This document shows positions 7,352 through 48,599 of a stretch of DNA of 64,000 nucleotides, in pieces. Source of the DNA: Musa acuminata AAA Group. Lineage: Eukaryota > Streptophyta > Magnoliopsida > Zingiberales > Musaceae. The stretch spans positions 13,016,001 through 13,080,000 of the forward strand of contig NC_088347.1 of assembly GCF_036884655.1 (NCBI RefSeq), read 5' to 3'. The notes beneath the pieces are model-generated. The model worked only from the letters and a program-made list of their open reading frames with translations, was not told the origin of the DNA and ran no database searches. Position 1 is the stretch's first letter; each line of letters starts with the position of its first letter. A program made the position numbers and the translations under genes.

Positions 7352-7623
7352 TCCACAAAATCATAACATATACATGTACTCACGTACCACCCGTTATCAT
7401 AATATATATGTACACTCTCACACTGCATATAATAAAATGTACGTACACTCTCACACTAAACATCATAATATATACTTGTATTCCCATAGTATACGTCATA
7501 ATATATACACGCACTTCTACATCACATATCATAATACATACGGACACTCCCATATTATATGTCATAATATATATATGCACTCCTACACTATATGTCATAA
7601 TGTATACGTGCATCACATGTCAT
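7352..7623. repeat. Minisatellite of about 36-bp units
   Basis: Seven or so copies of a unit resembling CATAATATATACRTGCACTC plus CYACACTATATGT lie here. The array is interrupted at 7624 by SV-B and its pattern resumes at 16034 (ATCATAATATACC, then a CTCACAC word), which confirms the SV-B insertion point. The repeat creates long open frames on both strands that are not credible genes. Confidence 0.8.
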
Positions 7624-9507
7624 TGTTAGGATCGAGAGCACTAAGAGGGGGGGGGTGAATTAGTGCAGCGGAAATCTTACAGCGATTAAAACCGAAAGGT
7701 GCGTTCGTTCGATAAAATCTATTATGATGCAAAAGCCGATTCACAGTTTGTATTTAAGCGCAGTTTGCGTCTAAGCGCAGATTGCGTCTAAGAGTAGTTT
7801 GTGTCTAAACTCAGTTTACGTCTAAATACAGTTTGCGTCTAAATGCAGTTTTACGTCTAAACTCAGTTTTACGTCTAAACGCAGTTTTACGTCTAAACGC
7901 AGTTTTGCGTTTGAACGCAGTTTTACGTCTAAACGCAGTTTTACGTCTAAACTCAGTTTTACGTCTAAACGCAGTTTTACGTCTAAACGTAGTTTTACGT
8001 CTAAACGCAGTTTTGCGTCTGAACGCAGTTTTACGTCTAAACTCAATTTTGCGTCTAAACGCAGTTTTACGTCTAAATGCAGATTCTGAACTTTGAAAAG
8101 CGTTTTGTGAATGCGCAGAAAGCAGTTTGCAGTTATAAATGGAATCAATACGTAAGCGTAAACTGCAATGTAAAGATCGTACGAAAACACCGATTTACGT
8201 CTTAATGCAGATTTGGAAAGATCTGAACTTAGAGAATCGTTTGTAAAAGCGCAGAGGGCAGTAGCTATGTAGGAGGTTTGCAGTAATGATAAAATGCTCA
8301 AAATAAACGCAAACCAGAGATTTAGAGTGGTTCGGTCAGTCTTGACCTACTCCACTTTTGGCTTCCTCCACCGATTAGGTCATCGATGTCAACTAGAGGC
8401 CTTCCTTCAATAGGCGAAGACCAACTGCCCTTTTACAGTTTCTCTCCTTTTGACAGGCTCAGGAGACAACCCTTACAGATCCTTTCTCTCCTCTCTTTAC
8501 AACTCAAGACTTGAAGAACAGAAAGAGGAGAACTTTTAGACTTTACACAATTTTGAGCTCTTAGAATCACAGAAAAGATCAGGAATTCGGTGTGGATCTG
8601 TATCTTTTCAGTGCTGAATGGGTGGGGTATTTATAGGCCCCAACCTAGTTCAAATTTGGAGCTCAAAACGATCAAATCCCGGAATTCCGGGATCAGGTGG
8701 TTGCACCTCTTGATTGGAGAGGTTGCACCGCCTGGCAGAGCTCGAAGACTGAGCCTCTGGGCGGTGCCACCTCTGTCAGAGGCGATTGCACCTCTCTGCT
8801 AGAGCTCGAAGACCGAGCTCAGGCGGTTGCACCGCCTGACTGGAGAGGTTGCATCGCCCAGTCTCGCTCGAAGACTGAGCCCTGGGCGGTTGCACCTCTT
8901 GGCTGGGGCTGTTGCACCGCCCAGTCTCGCTGGGAGACATAGCCTGGGCGGTGCTACCTCCCTGCCTGGGCGATTGCACCTCCCACTGCAACCTGGGTCC
9001 GAATGGGTTGAACCATTCGACCCAATTTGAGTTCTTCAGGGGCCCAATTGCCCTAGGATTAAGCAAATGGGATCACCTCCCATTTTTAACTTAATCAAAG
9101 TGCTAACTACGATTATTTCCTAAGACATATTCTGCAGCTTGCTTTGGTGTGTCACTCGCTTCTTCCGGCGAGTTTCCGGCGAACTTCCGTCGATCATCCG
9201 ATGAACCCTCGATGATACTCCTGCGGACTTCCGGCAAACTCCTGGACTGCGACGATCCACTTGGCAAGTTTCGACGAGCTCCTTTGGCAAGCTTCTGGAC
9301 TTCTCGGATTTGTTCCCGCAGAACCTCCGACGACTGTCCGAACTTCCGTCGAGCTCTCGAACTCCCAACGTGATCATTGTCATGACTCCGGCGCAACTCC
9401 TGCTGCATGTCTTACTTTCATCGTAGTTAATCCTGTACACTTATCTCAACACATAGATTAGATAACAAATGACAATTGACTTCATCATCAAAATCCGAGA
9501 TTCAACA
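7624..9507 (-). repeat. 3' LTR of SV-B
   Basis: This 1884-bp LTR is bounded by TG...CA. It has a TATA box at 8628-8635 (minus strand TATAAATA), a U3 palindromic array at about 8693-8995, a leader tandem array at about 7746-8085 and a 9-base homopolymer near 7646 (G on the plus strand). It is the same subfamily as the SV-D LTRs, as shown by the outer U3 ending in TCATCATCAAAATCCGAGAT. Confidence 0.9.
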
Positions 9508-9522
9508 ATCTCCCCCTTTTTT
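9508..9522 (-). promoter_or_regulatory. Polypurine tract of SV-B
   Basis: The minus strand reads AAAAAAGGGGGAGAT directly against the 3' LTR. This is the plus-strand DNA primer site and has the same core as in SV-D. Confidence 0.88.
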
Positions 9523-10582
9523 ATGATGACAATCAATTGATAATGGAGTTAACCTTAACTCCCCCTATCTACATGCCATAGTTGAGATAAGTCAACCTTG
9601 AATTCATGATCTTAGAATTCAAGTGACATATTGATAAGTTAGATCAGTTAAACTTATCAATATTCCTATCATGATACCCATCATGATGTATCTCTTCAAG
9701 GATGATGTCAAGGCTTGACATACATCATCAAGTTTGTATGATTGTGTTTGTAACTATTCATCATGTAGTTGAACATTATCATTAAAGCTGTGAAGCACTA
9801 TTACATGATGCACACATTTCAAATTTTCTAGCAAGTTTTGCATTATTTTTTTTATTTTACATGGTAAGATATCAACTTAAGGCATAATGCAAACTATAGC
9901 ACACGTTCATATATCTCTTGGTGATGCAAGGATGGCATAATCATAACATTGTTTATAGCATCACTCAAGTATTTTGCAAGTATGACATAGACATGATCAT
10001 GGCAGTGTTTATCAATTCATATGTTTCTCCCCCTTTGTCATCAACAAAAAGCATGGTAATTGTGATACCAGGAAAATAATATCAACAAGCTTATAGAGGA
10101 ATTTTACATAGATTGCTTTGAAAGCTTCTTCCCCTTTTTGTTATAATTGTTATAATCCATTGTGCACGCAAAGATATTACAAGATGGAACACATACACAG
10201 GAACCACTTTATTTCAGAAACTTATTTTTTTTTATGAAAGTGTACGAGAAAATCTGTTTTATAGCATTCGAATAATGAGATGCATTCGAACAAGATTATG
10301 TTACAGATTTTCAAAAATAATCATAGAAATATGGCAATCAAGTGATTTGATCATTCAATATAGTCCGAAAAATAATTTTAACAAGTTTATCTATTCGGAC
10401 ACATCAACATTCCTAATTCGGACATATCACATATCCAAAAAAAGAAATGATACGATTAAAGTTCGAGATAACCTTTACCACAAGGCACAAGACAAATGTT
10501 TACCACGATAGATGTTTACAACCAGCATATCAGAAGTGAGTAACATAAGAAGTTTACAACAACAACAAATGTTCATACAAGT
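9523..10582 (-). other. Non-coding region between ORF2 and 3' LTR of SV-B
   Basis: No credible ORF. The reverse complement of 9523-10045 is similar to 30190-30720 of SV-D, including a second polypurine-like tract (AAAGGGGGAGAAAC on the minus strand near 10024-10037). This is the usual Sirevirus 3' internal region with more than one PPT-like tract. The part from 10050 to 10580 is AT-rich and unmatched in SV-D. Confidence 0.7.
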
Positions 10583-11701
10583 TCATTCATGAGGTGGAAA
10601 ATTAAAGTGCCTAAATAAGGAGTCAAATTGACTGTGAATTTGCTGCAGCTCAGATAAGATTTAATCTTGTTGTTGTTCAATCCGTTCTTGTCTCTGTTCG
10701 AATCGGTCCATCCTAATCCCAATTTCTTCGACGGATGTATGAGTTTGCTCAACTGGATGTGTTTCCTCAAAGGGACAGATCGGAGGAGATTGGGTATTCC
10801 TAAATATTGGTGTTTCCGGCTCAGGTTCAGGTTCTGGGTGAGGTTGAGGAGGATCAGTTCTTCTAGGCATTCTAACCCAGTTACCATTTCTATAGTGACA
10901 TTTTAGTCGGTGAAGTAGATTTTTGTTTATTATGCTGAATCTATCTACTTTCATTATTTCGTCTTCTGGTGGTATTTGAATGTCATAAGCTTTCATTATT
11001 CTAGTTATTATACCACCATATGGGAGCATCATATCTTTCTTAGATAATTCTAACATGTTTTGTTGGATAAGATAGCCAAGACAAATGTCATGTCCTTTCA
11101 TGATTAAGTACATAGTTCCTAATTCTAATTGACTCACTTCATCATGATGGTATTGTTTAGGAAGAATTATACTAGTCATGATATGATGAAGTATCTTAGT
11201 GTTAAAAGGTAGTAGATGTTCACAACTTTTAGGAACAAATGCTATGTTAGGATTGGCAAAGATTGTTCCTAAGGCTCCAACATAGGATGTTCCAATAGTT
11301 TCATCATCCCATGACCCTCTAAAGTAAAGTCCTATGCTTTTCATGGGAATGCCTATCATATCACAAATAAATCTATCAGTGATTGAGATGTGTTGTCCTA
11401 AAAGATAGGTGGACATCCTTTCTTCATCATCTATTTGTAAGTTATTGTAAAACAATCTTACTAGCCTAGGATAGATGGGTTCGTTAATATGCAAGATTGG
11501 AAGTAGATCTAGGTTTGCAAACCATTGGATAGTCTCTACATCTCTTAGTTCATTCAGATTTACGTATTTTCCCTTATTGATGCTTCTTAGTTCGAAAGAG
11601 AGAAATTTTTCAGCATGGATTTTTGAATCAAAAAGGGTAAAATCAAACTCTTCTACTAATCTCCTCTTTCCCTTGTTCGTTGAGGATCTTCTAGATCCCA
11701 T
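10583..11701 (-). pseudogene. ORF2 of SV-B: 'putative plant transposon protein' type, near-intact
   Basis: The ATG is at 11699-11701 (the GTG just upstream is not a plausible plant start). The frame is open for 346 codons to a stop at 10661-10663, then continues in the same frame to 10583, giving 372 codons. Residues about 20-250 form a globular region with FLSFELRSINKGKYVNLNEL, LVRLFYNNLQIDDEERMSTY, ITDRFICDMIGIP and LPYGGIITRIMKAYDI, which I recognise as the plant-specific family named 'putative plant transposon protein' (Pfam PF20167 as I recall). Residues about 275-320 are Pro/Glu-rich. The C-terminus is a Gln/Glu-rich coiled coil (MDRFEQRQERIEQQQD) whose heptads continue past the stop. 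I see no signal peptide or membrane segment, so an envelope role is not supported. It may be a Gag-like or accessory protein; function unknown. Confidence 0.75.
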
Positions 11702-12474
11702 CACTACTACTGTTTAAAGGGATAAATCTGAGCAAGAGTAAATGAAGAACAAAACAGAGTTCAAGAGGTTCTTAGAGAATACCTTAGTGGAATCTTCAAA
11801 AGAGGGAAGGATTCTTGATGAGAGGTATTTGGGAAGCTAAACGGGGTGAGATGGGGATGGAGGAGGCTTGGAGGAGTAGAGAAGGAAAGGGAAGTGAGTT
11901 GGGGTCGGTTTCACCGTCGGCCCTAGCGTGGGTTAAAAAGGCAGAGTTGCGGGCGGTTGCACCTCTGGCTGGAGAGGTGCAACCGCTGGCAACTCGTGAT
12001 GGCTGGAGGTGCCACCGCCAGCTGGAGAGGTGCCACCGCCTGCAGGCAGTGAACACTTTGTGATTTGATCAGAGAGGTTTTGTCTTGAGGAGAGTTTTCG
12101 TTAATGTTTCTTACGTGATTACGTATGCGTTTTTATTTCAAGGCAAAAACACTTGTACGATCGTGCATACTCCTAATGTCGTACGTATGTTTGTGATGGT
12201 TCATTCAGGTTGGTAACCCTTTCAAGTTCATGACATACTTAGTTTCTTCATAATATAAGGTTTGATTTGAAGATGATGAATGGGTAATTTTGACGGATTC
12301 GAAGATCAAGGGGATGTGTGAATCATATGTTTATAATTTTGAAAATTCACATTAGGTTGTATCCAAATTGCATTTGTGATTCCACTCATTATTTAAGCGT
12401 TGCGAGTTCCTCCTAAAGTTATAACTGTCGAGAATCAAGGAGCAGAACATTAATTCTTGCTCCGTCCTAAAGTT
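11702..12474 (-). promoter_or_regulatory. Candidate separate promoter/leader of ORF2
   Basis: Between gag and ORF2 lies sequence absent from SV-D. At about 11950-12052 it holds three or four copies of the same palindromic words as the LTR U3 (GGCGGTTGCACCTC, GGTGCCACCGCC). On the minus strand this is followed by a pyrimidine-rich stretch (11840-11910, CCTTCTCTACTCCTCC-like) resembling a plant core-promoter Y patch or 5' UTR, then ORF2. A possible mini-intron (GTATTC...CTTGCTCAG, about 58 nt) sits just before the ATG but is short for plants. The part from 12061 to 12474 has no recognisable origin. Promoter function is an inference. Confidence 0.4.
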
Positions 12475-14067
12475 TTAATGTTTTTGTAGGAAGGGATGAT
12501 TTTTAGGTATCCATTTGCTTTTGGGTGCCTCACTAATAGATTTAGATTTTCTATCATGTTGCATAGAATTCGTCATGGTTCCTTTAGGAACCCAAATCAA
12601 TTTGTTTGGACTAATTTTCTTGAATGGACAATAATGTGTCTTGTATCCAATTTTGCAACAAAAGTTACATTTTGCTTGGTGTTGAACATGTAAGATGGGG
12701 CCTTTTATAAAGGTGGTTGGATTTAGGTGAGGACTTCTCACAAATCCAATTCCACTTCTTTTTGGAACGTGACCCTTGTTTGCAAGGATCATGTTCAATG
12801 ACTTGCTACCAACCTCGAATTTCTTCAAGGTGTCCTTAAGTAGCGAGTTTTCTTTTTGGAGAGTTTCTAGATCATGACATTTGATACTTGAATTTAAACT
12901 ATCATGATATTCAATTTTTAACTTATCAAAATCACAAGTAAGACTATCATGCTCCTTTTTCAGCAATTTGTATTTTCTATTGATAATCTTGCATTCATCA
13001 AATAAGTCATGGAAGGCATTTAATAATTCATCGAAAGATAAATCAGCATCTAATAAATTCGTTACCTCCTCTCCAATGGCCATTAAGGCGTAATGAGCAA
13101 CTTGCTCGGTGTTAGACTCCTCTTCTTCAGATGCGCTCGAGTCATCCCATGTTGCTTGAAGAGCCTTCTTCTTTGATGTTCTCTTTTTGACTTGGGGACA
13201 ATCACTCTTGTAGTGTTCCGGCTTTTTGCATTCATAGCAGATCACTTGGTCCTTCTTGGGTTCAAGTTTAATTTTTGCATCATTCTTAAACTTGTTTTTT
13301 TTAAAGAACTTTTTAAACTTTCTTGTCAGAAGTGCCAAGTCATCGTCACAGTCCTCATCACTTGAGTTTTCTCTCAAGTGGCATTCAGAAGTTTTAAGTG
13401 CCATATCCTTCATGTTCTTTGGAAGGATGTCTTCTTGCTCTTCATGAGCTTTGCAAGTCATCTCGTAGGTCATTAATGACCCAATTAGTTCTTCAAGAGG
13501 GAAGTTGTTTAGATCTTTTGCCTCTTGAATAGCAGTGACTTTAGGATCCCAACTCTTAGGAAGGGATCTTAGGATCTTATTTACCAGCTCAAAATCCGAA
13601 AAACTTTTTCCGAGTCCTTTTAGACCGTTGACAATATCCGTGAAACGGGTAAACATGTCGCCAATAGTCTCACTCGGTTTCATCCGAAAAAGTTCGAAAG
13701 AGTGTAACAAAAGATTGATTTTTGACTCTTTCACTCTACTTGTGCCTTCATAAGTCACTTCGAGTGTGTGCCAAATATCAAATGCAGTTTCACAAATCGA
13801 AACACGATTAAACTCGTTTTTATCAAGTGCACAAAATAAGGCATTCATAGCCTTTGCATTAAGAGCGAAAGCCTTCTTCTCCGAATCGTTCCAATCGATC
13901 ATTGGAAGAGAAGACTTTGAAAAACCATTCTCGACAAGATTCTAGAGTTCAACGTCCATAGAAATAAGAAAGATCCTCATTCGGGTCTTCCAATAGGTGT
14001 AGTCTGTCCCATTAAACATGGGTGGACGTGTAATGGAATGGCCCTCTTGGTTTCCGGCGTAAGCCAT
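12475..14067 (-). pseudogene. gag: gag of SV-B (single nonsense codon)
   Basis: The frame from ATG 14065-14067 to the stop at 12475 spans 531 codons. It is broken only by a TAG at 13942-13944 at the position of the conserved Trp in the LWNLVENGF motif, so the uninterrupted part is 475 codons. Features in order: the N-terminal YTYWKTRMRI motif, the UBN2-like capsid region (SETIGDMFTRFTDIVNGLKG, KILRSLPKSWDPKVTAIQEA), a complete CCHC knuckle (CYECKKPEHYKSDC), an acidic serine-rich stretch (DDSSASEEEESNTEQ), a coiled coil and a second Cys/His cluster (CNFCCKIGYKTHYCPF). The C-terminus ends at NHPFLQKH, exactly where the SV-D product would run into protease. Gag therefore terminates on its own in this family. 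Confidence 0.9.
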
Positions 14068-14103
14068 CTCTCTTGGGTTTTAATCCGTTTGAGAGTTAAC
14101 CTT

Positions 14104-14115
14104 GCTCTGATACCA
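14104..14115 (-). promoter_or_regulatory. Primer-binding site of SV-B
   Basis: TGGTATCAGAGC on the minus strand, two bases inside the 5' LTR, complementary to initiator tRNA-Met. Confidence 0.9.
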
Positions 14116-14117
14116 AT

Positions 14118-16033
14118 TGTTAGGATCGAGAGCACTAAGAGGGGGGGGGGGGGGGGTGAATTAGTGCAACGGAAATCTTACAGCGATTAAAACCGAAAGG
14201 TGCGTTCGTTCGATAAAATCTATTATAATGCAAAGGCCGATTCACAGTTTGTATTTAAGCGCAGTTTGCGTCTAAGCGCAGATTGCGTCTAAGAGCAGTT
14301 TGCGTCTAAACTCAGTTTACATCTAAACGCAGTTTAAGTCTAAACGTAGTTTTACGTCTAAACTCAGTTTTACGTCTAAACGCAGTTTTACGTCTAAACG
14401 CAGTTTTACGTCTAAACGCAGTTTTGCGTCTGAACGCAGTTTTACGTCTAAACGCAGTTTTATGTCTAAATTCAGTTTTACGTCTAAACGCAGTTTTACG
14501 TCTAAACACAGTTTTACATCTAAACGCAGTTTTGCATCTGAACGCAGTTTTACGTCTGAACGCAGTTTTACGTCTAAACGTAGTTTTGCGTCTAAACGTA
14601 GTTTTACGTCTAAACGCAGATTCTGAACTTTGAAAAGCGTTTTGTGAATGCGCAGAAAGCAGTTTGCAGTTATAAATGGAATCAATACGTAAGCGTAAAC
14701 TGCAATGTAAAGATCGTACGAAAACACCGATTTACGTCTTAATGCAGATTCGGAAAGATCTGAACTTAGAGAATCGTTCGTAAAAGCGCAGAGGGCAGTA
14801 GCTATGTAGGAGGTTTGCAGTAATGATAAAATGCTCAAAATAAACGCAAACCAGAGATTTAGAGTGGTTCGGTCAGTCTTGACCTACTCCACTTTTGGCT
14901 TCCTCCACCGATGTCAACTAGAGGCCTTCCTTCAATAGGCGAAGACCAACTGCCCTTTTACAGTTTCTCTCCTTTTGACAGGCTTAGGAGACAACCCTTA
15001 CAGATCCTTTCTCTCCTCTCTTTACAACTCAGGACTTGAAGAACAGAAAGAGGAGAACTTTTAGACTTTACACAATTTTGAGCTCTTAGAATCACAGAAA
15101 AGATCAGGAATTCGGTGTGGATCTGTATCTTTTCAGTGCTGAATGGGTGGGGTATTTTATAGGCCCGAACCCAGTTCAAATTTGGAGCTCAAAACGATCA
15201 AATCCCGGAATTTCGGGATCAGGCGGTTGCACCTCTTGACTGGAGAGGTTGCACTGCCTGGCAGAGCTCGAAGACTGAGCCTCTGGGCGGTGCCACCTCT
15301 GTTAGAGGCGGTTGCACCTCTCTGCCAGAGCTCGAAGACCGAGCTCAGGCGGTTGCACCGCCTGACTGGAGAGGTTGCACCGCCCAGTCTCGCTCGAAGA
15401 CTGAGCCCTGGGCGGTTGCACCTCTTGGCTGGGGCGATTGCACCGCCCAGTCTCGCTAGGAGACATAGCCTGGGCAGTGCTACCTCCCTGCCTGGGCGGT
15501 TGCACCTCCTACAGCAACCTGGGTCCGAATGGGTTGAACCATTCGACCCAATTTGAGTTCTTTAGGGGCCCAATTGCCCCAGGATTAAGCTAATGGGATC
15601 ACCTCCCATTTCGAACTTAATCAAAGTGCTAACTACAATTATTTCCTAAGACATATTCTGCAACTTGCTTTGGTGCGTCACTCGCTTCTTCCGGCGAGTT
15701 TCCGGCGAACTTCCGTCGATCATCCGATGAACCCTCGGTGGTATTCCTGCGGACTTCCGGCAAACTCCTGGACTGCGACGATCCACTTGGCAAGTTCCGA
15801 CGAGCTCCTTTGGTAAGCTTCTGGACTTCTCGGATTTGTTCCCGCAGAACCTCCGACGACTGTCCGAACTTCCGTCGAGGTCTCGAACTCCCAATGTGAT
15901 CATTGTCATGACTCCGGCGCAACTCCTGCTACATGTCTTACTTTCATCGTAGTTAATCCTGCACACTAATCTCAACACATAGATTAGACAACAAATGACA
16001 ATTGACTTCATCATCAAAATCCGAGATTCAACA
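14118..16033 (-). repeat. 5' LTR of SV-B
   Basis: This 1916-bp LTR is highly similar to 7624-9507. Differences include a homopolymer of 16 G (near 14141-14156) against 9 in the 3' LTR, a short deletion near 14910 in the sequence before the 'rule' of the first leader exon-like part, different leader-array copy number (about 14240-14620), and a TATA region reading TATTTTATA on the plus strand (about 15152-15160) instead of TATTTATA. The U3 palindromic array is at about 15220-15515. Confidence 0.9.
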
Positions 16034-19853: not shown

Positions 19854-20522
19854 TGTTAGGAATGAGTCGGCACTAAGACGGGGGGTGAATTAGTGCAGCG
19901 GTAAAAATTATGTTGGTTAGAAAAACCTTCGTACGATAAAATCTGATTTCGACGAAAACCATTTCGGAAAGATATTTAAATTGAAAGCATACAGAAGTAT
20001 AGTTGATGTAAAGCAAAGAAGGTAGTTTTCAGTTAAGATAAATGGCAAAATAGAAATGCAAACCGATTTATAGTGGTTCGGTCATCATGACCTACATCCA
20101 CTCCTCTGATTCCTCTTCCGTTGAGGCCATCGGCATCCACTATCGATCTTCCTTTAATAGGCAAAGATCAACCTCCTTCTTACATCCCTCTTCTCTTTTT
20201 ATCGGGTTTAGGAGACAACCCTTACAAGCACTCACTCCTCTCTTAAACTATTCTAACACTTAAACTAGAAGAGGAGGATTCTCACAAGAGATTATAACAA
20301 CGTTTTTCCCTCTTTAAATTCTCTGTGCTTATGAAAGTTAACCAGGGATGAGAGGGGTATTTATGGGCATCAAATTGATTGAAACATGGAGCCTAAAAAG
20401 GTCTTATCCCAGGTTTTCTAGGTATTGGCGGTACCACCGGATTTGTAGTCGGGCGGTACCACCACCGAACAGGGGCGGTACCACTACTGGCAGCATTACT
20501 ACTGGTGGAACCACCACCCAGC

Positions 20523-22670
20523 TGTTAGGATCAAGAGCATTAAGAGGAGGGGGGGGGGGGGGGGGGGTGAATTAGTGCAGCGGAAAACTTTCTACGATTA
20601 AAATCGAAAGCTGCGTAAAAACGATTTCGATGTAAAATCTGATCCTAAGACTACTTTAGCTTAAGATTAAGCGAGATGACGTTAAAGTAGATCTACAGAG
20701 GCAGTTTGCAGTTTATGATAAAAATCAGAATGCAAGCGCAAACTGAAATGCGACGTTCGTACGATAAAACCGGTTTACGTCTAAACGTCAACTTTGAAGA
20801 TACTGAACTTTGAGATATGTTTTGTAAATGTGCAGAAGGCAGTTTGCAGTTATAATTGGAGTCAAAACGTAAACGTAAACTGAAATGTAATGATCGTACG
20901 AAAACATCGATTTACGTCTAAACACAGATTCGGAAAGTTCTGAACTTAGAAACTTGTTCGTAAAAGAGCAGAAGGCAATAGCTATTTAGGAGGTTTGCAG
21001 TAATGATAAAATGCTCAAAGTAAATGCAAACTGAGATTTAGAGTGGTTCGGTCAGTCTTAACCTACTCCACTTTTGGCTTCCTCCACCGACGAGGTCACC
21101 GACGTCAACTAGAGGCCTTCCTTCAATAGACGAAGGCCAATTGCCATTTTACAGTTTCACTCCTTTTGACGGGCTCAGGAGACAACCCTTACAGAACTTT
21201 TCTCTCCTCTCTTTACAACTCAAAACTTTGAAGAATAGAACGAGGAGAACTTTTGGCCTTTACAACAATTTTGAGCTCTAAGAATCACAGAAAAGATCAA
21301 GATTTTGGTGTATATCTATGCCTTTTCAGTGCTGAATGGATGGGGTATTTATAGGCCCCAACCCAATTCAAATTTGGAGCTCAAAACTATCAAATCCTGG
21401 AATTCCGGGATCAAGCGGTTGCACCTCCTGACTGGAGCGGTTACACCGCTTGGCAGAGCTCGAAGATTGTGCCCAGGCGGTTGCACCTATCTGTCAGGAG
21501 CGGTTGCACTGCCTTAGTCTAGCTCGGAGACTGAGCCCAAGCGGTTGCACCTCCTGACTGAGGCGGTTGCACCGCCGGCCAGAGCTCGAAGACCGAGCTC
21601 AGGCGGTGCTACCTCTTTGTCAAGGGAGGTTACACCGCCTAGTCTCGCTCGGAGACTGAGCCCAGGCGATGCCACCTCCTGGCTGGGGCGGTTGCACCGC
21701 CCAGTCTCCTTGGGAGACTTAGCCCAGGCGCTGTTACCTCCTGGCTTGGGCGGTTGCACCTCCTAGTCTCCCTGGGAGACTTAGCCCAGGCGGTGCTACC
21801 TCCTGGCTTGGGCGGTTGCACCTCCCACAGCAATCAGGGTCCGAATGGGTAGCTTCATTTGGCCCAATTTTGGTTTTTCAGGGGCCCAATTGCCCTAAGA
21901 TTAAGCTAATGGGATCACCTCCCATTTCCAACTTAATCAATGTGCTAACTACGATTAATCCTAAGGCAATCTCTACAGCTTGCTCCGGTGCGTCAATCGC
22001 TTCTTCCGGTGAACTTCCGTCGATCATCCGATGAACCCTCGGTGATACTCCTATGGACCTCCGGCAAACTCCTGGACTTGCGACGATCCACTTGGCGAGT
22101 TCCGATGAGCTTCGCTTGGCAAGCTCCTGGACTTCTCGGATCTATTCCCGCAGAACCTCCGACGACTGTCCGAACTTCCGTCGAACTCTCGAACTCCCAA
22201 CGTAATCATTGACTTGACTCCGGCGTAACTCCCGCTGCTTGTCTGACTTTCATCGTAGTTAATCCTGCACACTTAAAACAAAACTTCGATCGAGACAATT
22301 AATCCTAAGCAAGTAACCAAGTTGTTCGACATGTCATTGGTCCCTCGACGCTTCGTCCGATTCTTCGGCGCATCGTCCTCTCCTGCAGCCTATTGCCCAA
22401 TCAGCTAGTTGACTCCGCAACTCCGATATCCTTGGCACAATACCCGCTCTTCTTGGCCCGATGCCCGAGTCCATGGCCCGAAGCCTTCTGTCGATACGTC
22501 GACCGATCCACCGGCCCGACGTCCAATCTTCTGACATGTTCCTTCGGCACAACATGATTTTCCTGCTTTAATTGTCTCATCCTGATCGAAGCATCCTGCG
22601 TCACACAAAACGCAGATTAAATCATAAACATATATCAAGTAGTTTCTTCATCAAAATACGAGATTCAACA
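20523..22670 (-). repeat. 3' LTR of SV-C
   Basis: 2148 bp with TG...CA ends. The homopolymer near 20550-20567 has about 19 G on the plus strand, against 8 in the 5' LTR. The TATA box lies near 21346-21353 and the U3 palindromic array at about 21410-21830. Unlike SV-A, SV-B, SV-D and sLTR-K it lacks the 18-bp leader array, keeping only isolated CAGTTTGCAG words. Confidence 0.9.
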
Positions 22671-22685
22671 ATCTCCCCATTTTTT
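22671..22685 (-). promoter_or_regulatory. Polypurine tract of SV-C
   Basis: The minus strand reads AAAAAATGGGGAGAT against the LTR, with one T interrupting the purine run. Confidence 0.82.
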
Positions 22686-23305
22686 ATGATGACAACCACT
22701 TGATGACGGAGTTAAACTTAACTCCCGGAGTTTAAACAAACTCCCCCTATCAATATGCCATTTGATAGAACCTTGAATTCAAACTGAATTCAAGTCATTG
22801 CAATATTCATCATGAATACTTGCAACACGTCTTCATGAACTTATGCATAAACTTATGTATAACATCATACTTCTCCCCCTTTGTCATCAACAAAAAGGAG
22901 AAGTACCACAATCAAGCGTTTGTGATATTGGTTCAACTTATTGCATGAAAAACATAATATCAAGTTTTATCATCATGCAAGTTTTGAAACTAGAAAATTT
23001 AGCAAATGTTACATCATGCTTAGAACATTCAAGCTATCAAGTTTTAGATATGCGAGTTTTACAGCATACAAGATAGCACTTTTAGAACATGCAAGCTAGC
23101 AATGTTACAACATTTTAGAACTTGCAAGCTAGCAATTTAGAGATGTTCAAGAAGGCAACTCTTGCTTCTTGAAGTATAAGTTTTGCTACATGTGCAAGTT
23201 AACTTTTTGCTTCTGCAAGATATCATTCCTTGGTGATGTTCAATATAGCAAGTTCTACATCATGCAAGCTAGTGAATCTTATAACATTTTAGAACATGCA
23301 TAATC
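22686..23305 (-). other. Non-coding 3' internal region of SV-C (left part)
   Basis: No credible ORF. It contains an internal polypurine-like tract (minus strand AAAGGGGGAGAAG near 22869-22881) and scattered GCAAGCTAGCAA words (about 23086, 23123 and 23263). The last five bases, TAATC (23301-23305), are the target duplication of SV-D. Confidence 0.65.
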
Positions 23306-23825
23306 TGTTGAATCTCGGATTTTGATGATGAAGTCAATTGTCATTTGTTATCTAATCTATGTGTTGAGATAAGTGTGCAGGATTAACTACGATGAGAGTA
23401 AGACAAGCAGCAGGTGTTGCGCCGGAGTCAAGATCATGATCACGTTGGGAGTTCGAGAGTTCGACGGAAGTTCGGACGGTCGTCGGAGGTTCAGCGAGAA
23501 CAGATCCGAGAAGTCCAGAAGCTTGCCAAGCGAAGCTCGTCGGAACTCGCCAAGTGGATCGTCGCAAAGTCCAAGAGTATGCCGGATGTCCGCAGAAGGA
23601 TCACCGAGGGTTTATCGGATGATCGACGGAAGTTCGCCGGAAACTCGCCGGAAGAAGCGATTGACGCATCGGAGCAAAGCTGCAGAAGTTGTCTTAGAGT
23701 TAATCGTAGTTAGCACGATGATTAAGCTTGAAAATGGGAGGTGATCCCATTAGCTTAATCTTGGGGCAATTGGGCCCCTGAAAAGATTCAAATTGGGCCG
23801 AATGGAGCGAACCATTCGGACCCTG

Positions 23826-24315
23826 ATTGCACCAGGCGGTGCAACCGCCCCAGCCAAGAGGTGCAACCGCCCAGAGCTCAGTCTTCGAGCTAGACTGGGC
23901 GGTGCAACCTCCTCTGTCAAGAGGTAGCACCGCCAGAGCTCAAGTTTCGAGCTCTGCCAGGCGGTGCAACCACCAAGCTCAGTCTTCGAGCTCTGGCAGA
24001 GAGGTGCATCAGCCTGAGCTCAGTCTCGAGCTCTGCCAGGTGATGCAACCACCGAGCTTAGTCTTCGAGCTCTGGCAGAGAGGTGCATCAGCCTGAGCTC
24101 AGTTTCGAGCTCTGCCAGGTGATGCAACCACCGAGCTCAGACTTCGAGCTCTGCCAGGCGGTGCAACCACCGAGCTCAGTCTTCGAGCTCTGCCAGGTGA
24201 TGCAACCATCGAGCTCAGTCTTCGAGCTCTGGCAGAGAGGAGCAATCGCCTGAGCTCAGTCGTCGAGCTCTGCCAGGCGGTGCCACCTCTCCAGTCAAGA
24301 GGTGCAACCGCCTGA
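23826..24315 (+). repeat. U3 palindromic array of SV-D 5' LTR
   Basis: GGCGGTGCAACCGCC-like words alternate with GAGCTCAGTCTTCGAGCTC spacers in units of about 35-40 bp. GGCGGT-GCA-ACCGCC is a perfect inverted repeat around 3 bases. In the 3' LTR (31257-31795) the array is about 50 bp longer through one duplicated block near 31285-31340. Confidence 0.85.
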
Positions 24316-24381
24316 TCCCAGAATTCTGGGATTTGATCGATTTGATCGTTTTGAGCTCCAAATTCGAACTGGGTTGGGGCC

Positions 24382-24389
24382 TATAAATA
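24382..24389 (+). promoter_or_regulatory. TATA box of SV-D 5' LTR
   Basis: TATAAATA in the context GGGGCCTATAAATACCCC, conserved in all Sirevirus-like LTRs of the window. Transcription should start about 30 bases downstream, near the CAGCACTGAAAAG word. Confidence 0.8.
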
Positions 24390-24904
24390 CCCCACCCATT
24401 CAGCACTGAAAAGATACAGATCCACACCGAATTCTTGATCTTTTCAGTGATTCTAAGAGCTCAAATTTGTGTAAAGTCCTAAAGTTCTCCTCCTTCTGTT
24501 CTTCAAGTCTTGAGTTGTAAAGAGAGGAGAGAAAGGATCTGTAAAGGTTGTCTCCTGAGCCTGTCAAAAGGAGAGAAACTGTAAAAGGGCAGTTAGCCTT
24601 CGCCCATTGAAGGAAGGCAGCTAGTTGACGTCGGTGACCTCGTCGGAGGAGGAAGCCAAAAGTGGAGTAGGTCAAGACTGACCGAACCACTCTAAATCTC
24701 TGGTTTGCTTTTACCTTGAGCACTTTATCATTACTGCAAACCTCCTACATTGCTACTGCCCTCTGCGCCTTTAAGAACGAGTTTCTAAGCTCTGATCTTT
24801 CAGAATCTGCATTCAAACGTAAATCGTGTTTTCATACGATCTTCACACTACAGTTTAAGCTTACATTCGGATTCCATTTATAACTGCAAATTGCTTTCTA
24901 CGTA

Positions 24905-25145
24905 AAACGCTTTTCAAGATTCAAAACTGCTTTTAGACGCAAAACTACATTTAGACGTAAAATTACATTTAGACGTAAAACTGCGTTTAGACGCAAAACT
25001 GTGTTTAGACGTAAAACTGCGTTTGGACGTAAAACTGCGTTTGGACGTAAAACTGCGTTTGGACGTAAAACTGCGTTTGGACGCAAACTGAGTTTAGACG
25101 CAAACTGCGCTTAGACGCAAACTGCGCTTAGACGCAAATTGCACT
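24905..25145 (+). repeat. Leader tandem array of SV-D 5' LTR
   Basis: About 12 copies of a 16-19-bp unit (TTTAGACGTAAAACTGCG) lie between the start site and the PBS, so in the RNA leader. Copies of the form ACGCA-AAC-TGCGT are short hairpins. The 3' LTR equivalent (about 32413-32610) has fewer copies. Confidence 0.85.
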
Positions 25146-25270
25146 GTGATTATGCTTTTATATCGAAATCGTTTTTTATCGGACGAACGCAGCTTTCGTT
25201 TTTAAATCGCTGAAAGATTTCCGCTGCACTAATTCACCCCCCCCCTCTTAGTGCTCTCGATCCTAACAAT

Positions 25271-25282
25271 TGGTATCAGAGC
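25271..25282 (+). promoter_or_regulatory. Primer-binding site of SV-D
   Basis: TGGTATCAGAGC, two bases after the LTR, complementary to the initiator tRNA-Met 3' end. Confidence 0.95.
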
Positions 25283-25318
25283 CCGGTTAACTCTCAAAAG
25301 GATTAAAACCCAAGAGAG

Positions 25319-26883
25319 ATGGCTTACGCCGGAAACCAAGAGGGCCATTCTATTACACGTCCACCCATGTTTAATGGGACGGACTACACCTACTGGAAGA
25401 CCCGAATGAGGATCTTTCTTATTTCTATGGATTTTGAATTATGGAATCTTGTCGAGAATGGTTTTTCAAAGTCTTCTCTTCCAATGATCGATTGGAATGA
25501 GTTGGAAAAGAAGGCTTTCGCTCTTAATGCAAAGGCTATGAATGCCTTATTTTGCGCACTTGATAAAAACGAGTTTAATCGTGTTTCAACTTGCGAAACT
25601 GCATTTGATATTTGGCACACACTTGAAGTGACCCACGAGGGCACAAGTAGAGTGAAAGAGTCAAAAATCAATCTGTTGCTGCATTCTTTTGAACTTTTCC
25701 GAATGAAACTATTGGCGACATATTTACCCGTTTCACGGATGTCGTCAACAGTCTAAAAGGACTTGGAAAAAGTTTTTCGGATTTTGAACTCGTAAATAAA
25801 ATACTAAGATCCCTTCCTAAAAGTTGGGATCCTAAAGTCACTGCCATTCAAGAGGCAAAAGATCTGCGCAACTTCCCTCTTGAAGAACTAATCGGGTCAT
25901 TAATGACCTACGAAATGACTTGCAAAGCTCATGAAGAGCAAGAAGACATCCTTCCAAAGAACAGGAAGGATATGGCACTTAAAACTTCTGAATGCCACTT
26001 GAGAGAAAACTCAAGTGATGAGGACTGTGATGATGACTTGGCACTTTTGACAAGAAAGTTTAAGAAATTCTTCAAAAGAAACAAGTTTAAAAACGATGTG
26101 AAAAATAAACTTGAACCCAAGAAGGACCAAGTGATCTGCTACGAATGTAAAAAGCTGGGACACTACAAGAATGATTGTCCCCAAGTCAAAAGAAGAACAT
26201 CAAAGAAGAAGGCTCTTCAAGCAACATGGGATGACTCAAGCGCATCTGAAGAAGAGGAGTCCAACACTGAGCAAGTTGCTCATTACGCCTTAATGGCCAT
26301 CGGAGAGGAGGTAACGGATTTATTAGATGCTGATTTATCTTTCGAGGAATTATCAAATGCCTTCCATGATTTATTTGATGAATGCAAAGTTATAAATAGA
26401 AAATACAAGTTGCTAAAAAAGGTACATGATAATCTTACTTGTGAGTTTGATAAGTTAAAAGTCGAACATCATGATAGTTTAAATTCATGTATCAAATGTC
26501 ATGATTTAGAAACTATGCAAAAAGAAAACCTGCTACTCAAGGACACCTTGAAGAAATTCGAGGTTGGTAGCAAGTCATTAAACATGATCCTTACAAACAA
26601 GGGTCATGCTCCCAAAAGAAGTGGGGTTGGATTTGTGAGGAGTCCTCACCAAAATCCAACTACCTTTGTAAAAGGCCCCATCTTACATGTTAGAAGCAAA
26701 TGCAACTTTTGTTGCAAGTTTGGACACAAGACACATTGTTGTCCATTCAAGAAAATAAGTCCAAACAAATTAATTTGGGTTCCTAAAGGAACCATGACAA
26801 ATTCTATGCAACATGATAAAAAATGTAGATCTATTTGTGAGGAACCCAAAAGCAAATGGGTACCTAAACATCATCCTTTCTTG
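25319..26883 (+). pseudogene. gag: gag of SV-D (10-bp deletion frameshift)
   Basis: ATG at 25319, 36 bases past the PBS. The first 130 codons carry RPPMFNGTDYTYWKTRMRIF and ETAFDIWHTLEVTHEGTSRV. At about 25708 ten bases present in the SV-B gag are missing, moving the frame; the rest continues from about 25710 in the frame of pol. The second part has KILRSLPKSWDPKVTAIQEA, a complete CCHC knuckle (CYECKKLGHYKNDC, 26137-26178), an acidic serine stretch, a coiled coil and the second Cys/His cluster (CNFCCKFGHKTHCCPF). Gag forms the particle and binds RNA. With the frameshift only a truncated Gag of about 145 residues could be made. Confidence 0.92.
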
Positions 26884-29800
26884 TAGAAAACTAAACCATC
26901 GCAAGCTAGGAGCAAGAGATGGTACCTTGACAGTGGATGCTCAAGGCATATGACCGGAGATTCATCCCAATTCTCTAAGCTCTCTAGCATAAACGAAGGA
27001 TATGTCACCTTCGGAGACAACAACAAGGGTAAAATCATTGGCAAAGGAACCATAGGTAACAAATCCAACTTTTCTATTGAAGATGTTTTGCTAGTTGATG
27101 GTCTAAAACATAACCTCCTAAGCATTAGTCAACTATGTGATAAAGGATATATCATCAAATTTGAATCTAATGCTTGCGTCATTGAAAAACCTCACAAAAA
27201 CATATCTATGATTGTATTAAAACAAAATAACGTATACACTATTGACATCGATGATTTATGTAATGAAACATGTTTTTCTGCTTTAAATGAGAATGCTTGG
27301 ATATGGCACAGAAGATTAGGTCATGCTAGCATGAAGCTAATCACTCAAATATCATCCAAAGAACTTGTAAGAGGAATTCCTCATATCAAGTTCATCAAAG
27401 ATAATGTATGTGATGCCTGCCAATTAGGTAAACAAATTAAGAGTAGCTTCAAATCTAAAAATCAAGTAAGCACCTCTAGGCCCTTACAATTGATCCATAT
27501 GGACTTGTTCGGACCCATCTCCACATCAAGCCTAGGAGGTAGCAAATACGCTTTCGTCATCATAGATGACTATAGCAGATACACATGGACTTACTTTTTA
27601 AAACAGAAAAGTGAATGCCTTAGATCTTTTACCAAGTTTTGCAAACTCGTTCAGAATGAGAAAGGTTCTATGATTTCGTCAATTAGAAGTGATCATGGTG
27701 GTGAATTTCAAAACCATGATTTCCAAGAATTTTGTGAACTCAATGGATACAACCATAATTTCTCTACTCCTAGAAACCCTCAACAAAATGGAGTTGTAGA
27801 AAGAAAAAATCGAAATTTACAAGAAATGGCAAGAACCATGTTAAATGAACATAACCTACCCAAATATTTTTGGGCCGAAGCCGTAAATACTGCATGCTAT
27901 ATCTTAAATAGAGTTCTAGTGAGACCTCTACTAACCAAAACTCCCTATGAGTTATGGAACAATAAAAAACCCAACGTTTCATATTTTAAAGTCTTTGGGT
28001 GTAAGTGTTTTATCCTGAATGAAAAAGACAACTTAGGAAAATTTGATGCTAAATCCGATGAAGGAATCTTTCTTGGTTATTCTACAGTTTCTAAAGCCTT
28101 TCGTATCTTTAATAAAAGAACTCTAATTATTGAAGAATCCATTCATGTTGTTTTCAATGAGACTTCTGAACTCACGAAAAATGATCTTGACGATGATGTT
28201 AATTTTGATTCTTTAAATTTAAACGAGACCCCGTCTCCAACTAGCAACTTGGATGCATCCACTTCTCAGATTTCCTTACCCAAGGATTGGAAGTATATAG
28301 ATGCTCATCCTAAGGAGCTAATCTTAGGAGACACATCAAAGGGAGTTCAAACACGATCTTCTCTTAAAACCTTTTGTGCAAATACCGCCTTTCTCTCCCA
28401 AATTGAACCCAAATGTGTTGATGAAGCCATGAAAGATAATTCATGGATTATCGCAATGCAAGATGAATTAAATCAATTTGAAAGAAATGGAGTGTGGAAG
28501 CTTGTTCCTAGGCCAAATGACCATCTAGTTATTGGTACTAAATGGGTCTTCAGAAACAAGCAAAATGAAAATGGTATCGTGGTTAGAAACAAGGCTAGAT
28601 TAGTGGCCAAAGGTTTCAACTAAGAAGAAGGTATCGATTACGAAGAAACCTTCGCTCCTGTGGCACGATTGGAAGCCATAAGGATGCTCCTTGCCTACGC
28701 TAGCAGTAATAATTTTAAGTTGTTTCAAATGGATGTTAAAAGCGCCTTTCTTAATGGCTTTATTTCCGAAGAAGTCTATGTTGAACAACCTCCTGGATTT
28801 GAAAATAATAGTCTCCCTAATCATGTGTTTAGATTAACTAAAGCTCTCTATGGTTTAAAACAAGCTCCTAGGGCTTGGTATGAGAGACTTAGTTCTTTTC
28901 TTATTGAAAATAATTTCATAAAAGGCAAGGTTGATACTACATTATTCATCAAGAACTTTGAAAACAATTTTCTCATTGTTCAAATTTATGTTGATGATAT
29001 TATCTTTGGTTCTACAAATGAATCTCTTTGTGAATCCTTTGCGAAAATTATGAGTCATGAATTCGAAATGAGTCTAATGGGAGAGTTAACATACTTCTTA
29101 GGCCTACAAATCAAACAACTAAGCAATGACATCTTTATTAGTCAAACCAAATATGCTGTGAGTTTGCTGAAGAAGTTCAAAATGAATAATTCAAAAGCCA
29201 TTGACACTCCTATGAGCACCTCCACTAAGCTAGAAATTGATGAGAATGGAGAAAGCTTCGATCAAAAAACCTATAGGGGTATGATAGGAAGTTTACTTTA
29301 CCTCACTGCCACCAGACCAGACATCATGTTCAATGTAGGACTTTGTGCTAGATTTCAATCAGACCCTAAGATATCTCATCTCAAAGCAGTCAAAAGAATA
29401 CTCAGATATCTTAATGGAACTACCAATCTAGGATTATGGTACCCAAAATCAGAAAATTTTGAATTAACAGCTTATGCTGATGCGGACTTCGCTGGCTGTA
29501 GACTAGACAGAAAAAGCACATCAGGATCATGTCAATTTTTAGGACATACCCTTGTATCCTAGTCATCTAAGAAACAAAACTCGGTTGCTCTATCAACAAC
29601 CGAAGCTGAATACATTGCAGCAAGTGCATGCTGTGCACAAGTTGTATGGATGAAAAACACTTTAGAAGATTACAAAGTGAATCTTAAAGATATTCCCATT
29701 AAATGTGATAACACGAGTGCAATATGCTTAACTAAAAATCCTATACAACACTCAAGAACAAAACACATTGATATTAGACATCACTTTATACGAGATCATG

Positions 29801-29937
29801 TCTCTAATCATGATGTAACCATAGAGTTTATTGATACCAAACATCAACTAGCTGATATCTTCACAAAACCCCTATGTGAAGAACAATTTGATTACATAAG
29901 AAGAGAATTGGGAATGTTGATGTGTTCGAATACTTAA
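26884..29937 (+). pseudogene. pol: pol of SV-D: protease, integrase, reverse transcriptase, RNase H
   Basis: One frame, continuous with the second part of gag, broken by TAG 26884-26886, TAA 28621-28623 and TAG 29560-29562. Aspartic protease: YLDSGCSRHMTG, catalytic Asp at 26929. GAG-pre-integrase: HRRLGHASMKLI...CDACQLGK (about 27306-27435), a zinc-binding HHCC type. Integrase core: D 27502, D 27691, E 27799 (D-D35-E spacing). Reverse transcriptase: about 28480-29165, with [12 protein letters not shown] and the active site YVDD at 28987-28998. RNase [20 protein letters not shown] and STTEAEYIAASA, ending at 29937. All three stops fit a C-to-T change on one strand (Gln codons at the first two, a Trp codon at the third, by comparison with family consensus). 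No domain is missing; no envelope-like ORF follows. Confidence 0.95.
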
Positions 29938-30722
29938 AAAAATTATTATTCGGATGTTATTACTATTACATGCATTGACATCGCATGTTGCAAATTATGT
30001 GACAAATATTTTTAACCAAATGCATGTAAGAAGTTCATTTTTTGGTTTGTATGCTAAAAATGGGATTTTCCTGTACAATCTTATGAAAACTTTTTGAAAA
30101 ATGACATTCCTCCTTCAAGCAACAAACAATAAAGAGATATTCAAAGTATTATATGTGTCATGACTTCCTTTATGTGCTTGATAATGTTATCATGCGTTTT
30201 GTTGATGACAAAGGGGGAGAAACATATGAATTGATAAACACTATGTCATATCTGAACTGCCATAATCATGTCTATGTCATAGTTGCAAATACTTGAGTGA
30301 TGCTATAAACAATGTTATAGTTATGCCATCCTTGCATCACCAAGAGATATGTGAACATGTGCTATAGTTTGCATCATGTCTTGATTTGATATTCTATATT
30401 GTGAAGAAAATGCAAACTTGCTAGAAAATCTCAAATGTGTGCATCATGTAAAAAGTCCTTCGTAGCTTTATATGATTACATGATGAATAGTTACAAACAC
30501 TATCATACAAACTTGATGATGTATGTCATGCCTTGACATCATTCTTGAAGAGATACATCATGATGGGCATCATGATGGGAGCATTGATAAGTTTAACTGA
30601 TCTAACTTATCAATACGTCACTTGAATTCTTTGGTCTTGAATTCAAGGTTGACTTATCTCAACTATGGCATATAGATAGGGGGAGTTAAGGACAACTCCT
30701 TTATCAATTGATTGTCATCATC
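29938..30722 (+). other. Non-coding 3' internal region of SV-D
   Basis: About 0.8 kb without an ORF. It contains an internal polypurine-like tract at about 30209-30221 (GACAAAGGGGGAGAAAC) about 0.5 kb before the true PPT, and shares this stretch with SV-B. Some Sireviruses carry an envelope-like ORF here; SV-D does not. Confidence 0.75.
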
Positions 30723-30736
30723 AAAAAGGGGGAGAT
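30723..30736 (+). promoter_or_regulatory. Polypurine tract of SV-D
   Basis: AAAAAGGGGGAGAT directly before the 3' LTR. Confidence 0.93.
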
Positions 30737-32733
30737 TGTTGAATCTCGGATTTTGATGATGAAGTCAATTGTCATTTGTTATCTAATCTATGTGTTGAGA
30801 TAAGTGTGCAGGATTAACTACGATGAGAGTAAGACAAGCAGCAGGTGTTGCGCCGGAGTCAAGATCATGATCACGTTGGGAGTTCGAGAGTTCGACGGAA
30901 GTTCGGACGGTCGTCGGAGGTTCAGCGAGAACAGATCCGAGAAGTCCAGAAGCTTGCCAAGCGAAGCTCGTCGGAACTCGCCAAGTGGATCGTCGCAAAG
31001 TCCAGGAGTATGCCGGATGTCTGCAGAAGGATCACCGAGGGTTTATCGGATGATCGACGGAAGTTCGCCGGAAACTCGCCGGAAGAAGCGATTGACGCAT
31101 CGGAGCAAAGCTGCAGAAGTTGTCTTAGAGTTAATCGTAGTTAGCACGATGATTAAGCTTGAAAATGGGAGGTGATCCCATTAGCTTAATCTTGGGGCAA
31201 TTGGGCCCATGAAAAGATTCAAATTGGGCCGAATGGAGCGAACCATTCGGACCCTGATTGCACCAGGCGGTGCAACCGCCCCAGCCAGGAGGTGCAACCG
31301 CCAGGGATGCGAGGCTGGGCGGTGCAACCGCCCCAGCCAAGAGGTACAACCGCCCAGAGCTCAGTCTTCGAGCTAGACTGGGCGGTGCAACCTCCTTTGT
31401 CAAGAGGTAGCACCGCTAGAGCTCAAGTTTCGAGCTCTGCCAGGCGGTGCAACCACCAAGCTCAGTCTTCGAGCTCTGGCAGAGAGGTGCATCAGCCTGA
31501 GCTCAGTCTCGAGCTCTGCCAGGTGATGCAACCACCGAGCTCAGTCTTCGAGCTCTGGCAGAGAGGTGCATCAGCCTGAGCTCAGTTTCGAGCTCTGCCA
31601 GGTGATGCAACCACCGAGCTCAGACTTCGAGCTCTGCCAGGCGGTGCAACCACCGAGCTCAGTCTTCGAGCTCTGCCAAGTGATGCAACCATTGAGCTCA
31701 GTCTTCGAGCTCTGGCAGAGAGGAGCAATCGCCTGAGCTCAGTCGTCGAGCTCTGCCAGGCGGTGCCACCTCTCCAGTCAAGAGGTGCAACCGCCTGATC
31801 CCAGAATTCTGGGATTTGATCGATTTGATCGTTTTGAGCTCCAAATTCGAACTGGGTTGGGGCCTATAAATACCCCACCCATTCAGCACTGAAAAGATAC
31901 AGATCCACACCGAATTCTTGATCTTTTCAGTGATTCTAAGAGCTCAAATTTGTGTAAAGTCCTAAAGTTCTCCTCCTTCTGTTCTTCAAGTCTTGAGTTG
32001 TAAAGAGAGGAGAGAAAGGATCTGTAAAGGTTGTCTCCTGAGCCTGTCAAAAGGAGAGAAACTGTAAAAGGGCAGTTAGCCTTCGCCCATTGAAGGAAGG
32101 CAGCTAGTTGACGTCGGTGACCTCGTCGGAGGAGGAAGCCAAAAGTGGAGTAGGTCAAGACTGACCGAACCACTCTAAATCTCTGGTTTGCTTTTACCTT
32201 GAGCACTTTATCATTACTGCAAACCTCCTACATTGCTACTGCCCTCTGCGCCTTTACGAACGAGTTTCTAAGCTCTGATCTTTCAGAATCTGCATTCAAA
32301 CGTAAATCGTGTTTTCATACGATCTTCACACTGCAGTTTAAGCTTACATTCGGATTCCATTTATAACTGCAAATTGCTTTCTACGTAAAACACTTTTCAA
32401 GATTCAAAACTGCTTTTAGACGCAAAACTACATTTAGACGTAAAATTACATTTAGACGTAAAACTGCGTTTAGACGCAAAACTGCGTTTGGACGTAAAAC
32501 TGCGTTTGGACGTAAAACTGCGTTTGGACGTAAAACTGAGTTTAGACGCAAACTGCGCTTAGACGCAAACTGTGCTTAGACGCAAACTGCGCTTAGACGC
32601 AAACTGCACTGTGATTCTGCTTTTATATCGAAATCGTTTTTTATCGGACGAACGCAGCTTTCGTTTTTAAATCGCTGAAAGATTTCCGCTGCACTAATTC
32701 ACCCCCCCCCTCTTAGTGCTCTCGATCCTAACA
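30737..32733 (+). repeat. 3' LTR of SV-D
   Basis: 1997 bp, nearly identical to 23306-25268. TATA box at 31865-31872. It is longer because of an extra block of about 50 bp in the U3 array, partly offset by fewer leader repeats. The C-run is 9, as in the 5' LTR. Confidence 0.95.
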
Positions 32734-32738
32734 TAATC

Positions 32739-35960: not shown

Positions 35961-35996
35961 TTCTCACGGGTGTAAATCTGAAATGAGAAAAACCGG

Positions 35997-36008
35997 GCTC
36001 TGATACCA
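35997..36008 (-). promoter_or_regulatory. Primer-binding site of SV-C
   Basis: TGGTATCAGAGC on the minus strand, two bases inside the 5' LTR. Confidence 0.92.
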
Positions 36009-36010
36009 AT

Positions 36011-48550: not shown

Positions 48551-48585
48551 TTCTCTTAGGTGTTAAGCCAAATGAGAAATACGAG

Positions 48586-48597
48586 GCTCTAATACCA
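48586..48597 (-). promoter_or_regulatory. Primer-binding site of SV-E (one change)
   Basis: The minus strand reads TGGTATTAGAGC; the canonical site has C at the seventh base. It is consistent with later decay by a C-to-T change. Confidence 0.8.
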
Positions 48598-48599
48598 AC

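Follow-up and report, generated by a model that had tools for sequence, protein, structure and literature searches.

The 64,000-nucleotide window of the Musa acuminata genome analysed here (contig NC_088347.1, positions 13,016,001 to 13,080,000) contains a Sirevirus on its minus strand, SV-B (7624-16033), in which gag and a second open reading frame (ORF2) are present and pol is absent except for 34 nt of its end. We consider it very probable that SV-B belongs to a high-copy, non-autonomous Sirevirus family of banana, of which it is an older and broken copy, and that this family arose by recombination and depends on a helper element. A preliminary description of the window had reported complete long terminal repeats (LTRs), a primer binding site (PBS), a polypurine tract (PPT), and a single nonsense codon both in gag and close to the end of ORF2, and all of these features could be located (Table 1).

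The two LTRs of SV-B form a direct repeat and are 93.8% identical. Their Kimura two-parameter (K2P) divergence is 0.0375, or 0.029 once the minisatellite is excluded, and at the substitution rates that we take to apply this corresponds to an age of about 1.1 to 3.2 million years. The flanking 5-mers (GTCAT and ATCAT) agree in four of five letters, and a 33-bp AT-rich tandem repeat at window positions 7361-7630 adjoins the insertion. The earlier claim that no trace of pol remains held in a tblastn search with two open stretches of pol from SV-D, a gag-pol Sirevirus in the same window (E<=0.1; the queries lacked the pol C-terminus). It did not hold downstream of ORF2, where 34 nt of the pol 3' end (10419-10386) align with a score of 26 against a maximum of 19 among 500 shuffles. 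Similarity to SV-D, formerly placed as far as the first protease codons, stops instead at the gag stop codon.

Table 1. Features of SV-B and of the candidate helper element SV-D, in window positions
Feature	Position	Strand	Description
5' LTR	14118..16033	-	1916 nt; RM boxes upstream of TATAAA; 18-bp minisatellite
Intervening ATTGG and PBS TATCAGAGC	14101..14117	-	matches the Sirevirus junction described in PMC2829016
gag	12475..14067	-	start 14067; PF14223 and CCHC zinc knuckle; nonsense codon 42 (13942-13944), otherwise open to 12475; stop TAA 12475-12477
gag-ORF2 spacer	11702..12474	-	about 73-81% identity to young-family spacers, 96% to that of the nearest sibling
RM-box cluster (GGTGCAACC / GGTTGCACC units)	11938..12044	-	followed by TATA-like CTTTTTAACC and a C/T-rich leader (by eye)
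ORF2	10586..11701	-	start 11701; 372 codons; PF20167 domain, proline-rich linker and C-terminal predicted helix; nonsense codon 347 (10661-10663)
pol 3'-end remnant	10386..10419	-	about 11 codons; downstream of ORF2
3' untranslated region	9508..10385	-	three GGGGGAG tracts, the last of which (9510-9516) is the PPT
3' LTR	7624..9507	-	1884 nt
SV-D	23306..32733	+	gag-pol Sirevirus without ORF2; helper-type; frames of this copy broken

The same arrangement recurs elsewhere in the host assembly (1.53 Gb). A search with P0001, an intact relative of ORF2, gave 10,650 first-look candidates, and 103 of the 110 best-scored copies are listed without an internal stop; the named protein matches of ORF2 come from Musa. 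The gag end, the spacer and ORF2 are contiguous in all 30 loci that were fetched from this ORF2-based search, although L013 and L026 have unaligned stretches of about 70 and 250 nt, respectively, between gag and spacer, and none of the 30 matches the two SV-D pol stretches used as queries. The gag stop TAA falls at an identical place in all 26 copies in which the end motif was found. Five loci were followed outward, and each has both LTRs (2.07-2.33 kb; K2P 0.0028-0.0107). The 5-bp target site duplication is exact in four of them and agrees in four of five letters in L029, gag is open to codon 527 in four and broken in L003, and both frames are open in four of the five. The nearest sibling of SV-B, as judged by its spacer, lies 440 kb away; it repeats the gag-spacer-ORF2 order at 96-99% identity, and the stop in its ORF2 differs from that of SV-B. 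The proposed two-gene non-autonomous family is therefore supported, and the possibility that SV-B is the only copy of its kind falls away. Given this shared layout and the young LTRs, the family probably spreads by borrowing the enzymes of a closely related complete element.

Nineteen of the 110 scored rows are arrayed, with successive copies 7.15-7.29 kb apart (twice that at one step), which by arithmetic is close to one LTR plus a pol-less interior. These arrayed copies lie on contigs C5, C19, C26 and C29, as if LTRs were shared, and spacer matches 6.8 kb apart were seen on C984/C985. Among the scored rows, copies of the P0001 type occur almost only on C5, C7, C19-C21, C25-C27 and C29, and those of P0005, a sister type with gag-pol-ORF2, almost only elsewhere. 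The window itself lies on C21. The split resembles that expected of a hybrid banana whose two subgenomes have one ORF2 family each.

Several features place SV-B and its relatives among the Sireviruses. The junction CA-ATTGG-TATCAGAGC between LTR and PBS occurs in SV-B (...CCTAACA-ATTGG-TATCAGAGC) and in all five copies followed outward. The PPT is repeated ahead of the 3' LTR, with three tracts in SV-B and two or three in six of seven copies inspected, the exception being L002 with one. A run of C about 20 nt before the LTR end, found by eye, corresponds to the C-rich integrase signal, and RM boxes precede TATAAA in the LTR. Of the 79 RM-box matches in the window, five form the SV-B spacer cluster and the other 74 lie inside LTR intervals. 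Three to five matches stand ahead of ORF2 in all 30 family spacers, and none was found in the first 700 nt (the gag end) or between the start of ORF2 and position 3900 of these loci. RM boxes upstream of envelope-like genes have been described in Sireviruses (PMC2829016).

The preliminary description called ORF2 a plant-specific reading frame, but it is not an unexplained one. The SV-B protein matches PF20167 (Transposase_32) with 57.4 bits, above the curated cut-off of 45. For the sister family P0005 (10,382 candidates; 112 scored, 26 of them listed with internal stops), pol lies directly upstream of the RM boxes and ORF2 in nine of ten inspected loci, the tenth, L043, being cut short within the spacer. 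Two of these loci were followed upstream and show a gag that is 97% identical to P0013, a stop, and then pol, in which the frame stays open over 685 and 690 codons up to where the examined piece ends; their LTRs differ by K2P 0.016 and 0.011 over the part covered, and each gag frame is interrupted once. Counting the query, 34 Citrus proteins match the ORF2 region of P0108. Eight Citrus gene models were scanned, and in each of them no other Pfam match lies nearer the C-terminus than PF20167, which exceeds its curated cut-off in five; reverse transcriptase (RT) is listed in seven and gag in seven, though such models may join neighbours. ORF2 is thus a Sirevirus 3' extra ORF, of the kind found downstream of pol in sister elements. 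In one survey 74% of SIRE elements carry a 3' extra ORF, in many unrelated forms (PMC6317226).

Simple hydropathy gave no transmembrane segment in four ORF2 proteins (maximum 19-residue value 1.09-1.25), so ORF2 is not called an envelope protein here. Two AlphaFold2 runs gave models with a mean predicted local distance difference test score of 48.6 and 59.4. Foldseek found no structural relative at E<=0.001 in PDB or a viral library, the only match of a profile search against PDB sequences had E 0.38, and a search of viral contigs found no relative. A gag-like protein, P0059, carried the name Klebsiella pneumoniae and resembles plant Sirevirus gag; its record is probably contaminated.

The position of ORF2 differs between the two families: it is downstream of pol in the sister family but upstream of a C-terminal stretch of pol in 28 of the 30 SV-B-type loci. 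That pol tail is close to SV-D (nonsynonymous divergence dN 0.028 and synonymous divergence dS 0.080 per site; 21 loci), and the gag end of the family is likewise nearer to SV-D (dS 0.14) than to SV-B (dS 0.27). In a tree of six gag sequences, SV-D groups with the family copy L024 with a support of 0.94. A second 5' junction emerged from a sample drawn with the family 3' untranslated region (3'UTR; 2,540 candidates, 40 scored, 18 fetched), in which three of the five copies with ORF2 join about 47 codons into pol and not at the gag stop. The two junctions and the pol tail are consistent with a spacer-ORF2 module having recombined repeatedly with a backbone of the SV-D type, and the family thus looks recombinant, with ORF2 occupying the place of pol. 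A single insertion of ORF2 between gag and pol, followed by one deletion that removed pol and left its tail, would also give the order gag-ORF2-pol tail, and the copies in which ORF2 is preceded by about the first 47 codons of pol suit this course. However, no gag-ORF2-pol element appeared among the loci examined, which are a small part of the genome, and two different 5' junctions are simpler to obtain by recombination, so this route is possible but unlikely.

SV-D-type elements are the likely natural helper. A search by RT gave 51,590 first-look candidates, and in 63 of the 127 scored rows an uninterrupted frame spans 1011 codons or more. No ORF2 was found within the 3.9 kb examined at six such loci, one of which is SV-D itself. 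Five of the six match the family 3'UTR at 96.8-97.7% and the LTR start in 38 of 38 letters. Conversely, 13 of the 18 loci drawn with the family 3'UTR (98-99% identical) carry pol, without ORF2 in the stretch examined. SV-D-type and SV-B-type elements have almost the same cis ends, and they occupy mostly the same set of contigs. The two could also be halves of a split retrotransposon that complement each other, instead of one simply exploiting the other, with the SV-D type giving Pol without ORF2 and the SV-B type giving ORF2 and Gag without Pol, but we regard such mutual complementation as doubtful. In SV-D (26880-26890), and in the upstream pieces L051 and L052 of L042 and L050, gag and pol share one frame that is split by a stop codon, which suggests stop readthrough in the pol-bearing elements. 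Two more Sireviruses in the window, at 19854-37766 (gag about 35226-36013, interrupted by SV-D) and 44511-49866 (gag about 47571-48598), gave no ORF2 match and almost no pol (one 25-residue match, E 0.009, in the latter).

Sampling by ORF2 protein score favours open frames, and hence copies were also drawn by noncoding DNA, namely with the 3'UTR as above and with the gag-ORF2 spacer (1,572 candidates, 40 scored, 20 fetched). ORF2 is present in 19 of the 20 spacer-drawn copies and full length in 18, of which 13 are open. ORF2 variants shared by at least two of these copies comprise 57 nonsynonymous and 66 synonymous changes (per-site N/S 0.23). Singleton variants comprise 37 and 11, which is near neutral (per-site N/S 0.88), together with four stops. 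The contrast between shared and singleton variants (Fisher p 0.0003) is indicative, the copies being related. A ratio (pN/pS) of 0.13 from copies picked by protein score is biased low and was replaced by the spacer-drawn values. Two ORF2 subtypes, t1 and t2, stand behind the same spacer and are separated by dN 0.072 and dS 0.336 (dN/dS 0.214), and SV-B and the young copies differ in ORF2 by dN 0.055 and dS 0.254 (ratio about 0.21). Changes within t2 are too few for a ratio, and dS has reached saturation in the comparison of ORF2 types 1 and 5. For gag, dN/dS is 0.109 among four copies (broken L003 was left out) and 0.12 against SV-B. Our reading is that the lineages that spread are constrained and that single copies decay. 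In L082, L083, L084, L086 and L087, the spacer is 99% identical and ORF2 is of another subtype (88% identical), which suggests exchange between ORF2 subtypes.

Several observations weigh against this interpretation. The shared-variant class is dominated by differences between the two subtypes, and the copies are not independent. Within t1, dN/dS rises to 0.37, with 0.48 for variants and 0.56 for singletons, but shared variants number only 6 and 6; a higher ratio there is as expected of dead copies. ORF2 is found in only five of the 18 3'UTR-drawn loci, and none of the four full-length frames among them is open. The TATA-like motif ahead of ORF2 is also weak. Neutral ratios with random breakage, the outcome that would have spoken for a chance rearrangement, are largely absent from the spacer-drawn copies and from the divergence estimates, but breakage does prevail in the 3'UTR sample.

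These data bear on the view that gag and ORF2 are passengers, such that pol-less copies amplify by cis signals alone and their open frames merely reflect youth. The near-neutral singletons, the closed frames of the 3'UTR sample and the low LTR divergences all agree with it, and a pol-bearing history on some branches could account for part of the constraint. It nevertheless appears quite improbable, because dN/dS is about 0.21 for ORF2, both between t1 and t2 and between SV-B and the young copies, and 0.12 for gag against SV-B, and divergence at these levels therefore accumulated under constraint. The idea that a single internal deletion removed pol from an ancestor of SV-B with gag, pol and ORF2, which would accord with the gag-pol-RM-ORF2 order of sister elements and with a gag/spacer junction at the gag stop, is dropped as very improbable because such a deletion cannot move the SV-D-like pol tail downstream of ORF2. 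The preliminary idea that both proteins were under selection while a helper supplied pol is favoured by the dN/dS values and by the existence of a candidate helper in which long pol frames are open; Pol would then be supplied in trans.

We propose that the 3' end of a gag-pol-ORF2 Sirevirus gave rise to the spacer-ORF2 module and that recombination may have placed this module where pol stood on an SV-D-type backbone. The family RNA would be packaged in Gag particles, and its copying and integration would be carried out by Pol supplied in trans from SV-D-type elements. An internal promoter at the RM boxes may drive expression of ORF2. ORF2 may work jointly with Gag or with its own RNA, which could explain why it is retained while pol is not. 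Mobility, the trans supply of Pol and the function of ORF2 are deduced here from sequence patterns and are put forward as such.

The preliminary description had ranked this element as the best candidate in the window for an undescribed system, but the general arrangement is already known. Families with gag and env but no pol, evolving under purifying selection and recombinant in origin, have been described for Athila in Arabidopsis (Marco and Marin 2008, PMC2410132). Like the SV-B family, these have LTRs, gag, a 3' ORF and no pol, which is the layout of non-autonomous gag+env elements. They belong to Ty3/gypsy and are described as having very low activity, whereas the SV-B family belongs to Ty1/copia and has many young copies; a pol tail behind the second ORF finds no mention in the accessible text of that article. 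TR-GAG elements (PMC8704663) are also pol-less, gag-bearing and presumed or shown to move with help. They have gag as their single ORF, and the SV-B family, which keeps ORF2 in nearly all spacer-drawn copies, falls outside that definition. Sireviruses with an envelope-like gene and the SIRE eORF-3'F elements (PMC2829016, PMC6317226) share the cis motifs and the RM boxes upstream of a 3' extra ORF. In them pol lies upstream of that ORF, unlike in the SV-B family, and ORF2 differs from the envelope-like protein in lacking a transmembrane segment by hydropathy. The 3' aORF of sunflower Athila (PMC11728184) contains the same PF20167 domain in a Ty3/gypsy element, and the accessible part of that article makes no mention of Sireviruses. 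Among the open-access articles that our searches listed, judged by titles and abstract openings, none described a pol-less Sirevirus with gag and a second ORF or a case in banana. As far as these sources extend, what is new is the Sirevirus and banana instance. It stands out in that the family is large and young, that ORF2 has replaced pol with a pol tail behind it, and that three natural element classes occur side by side.

What Sireviruses use their extra 3' genes for is a long-standing question (PMC2829016, PMC6317226). The banana elements provide a natural separation, in which a large recent family keeps gag and ORF2 without pol beside sister families that have pol and ORF2 or pol alone. 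Because ORF2 is separated from pol, it cannot be expressed by pol readthrough in SV-B-type elements, and because it is conserved without pol, its conservation would serve something besides the supply of enzymes. The banana genome, that of a crop, also makes it possible to count and compare a presumed helper and the elements that depend on it.

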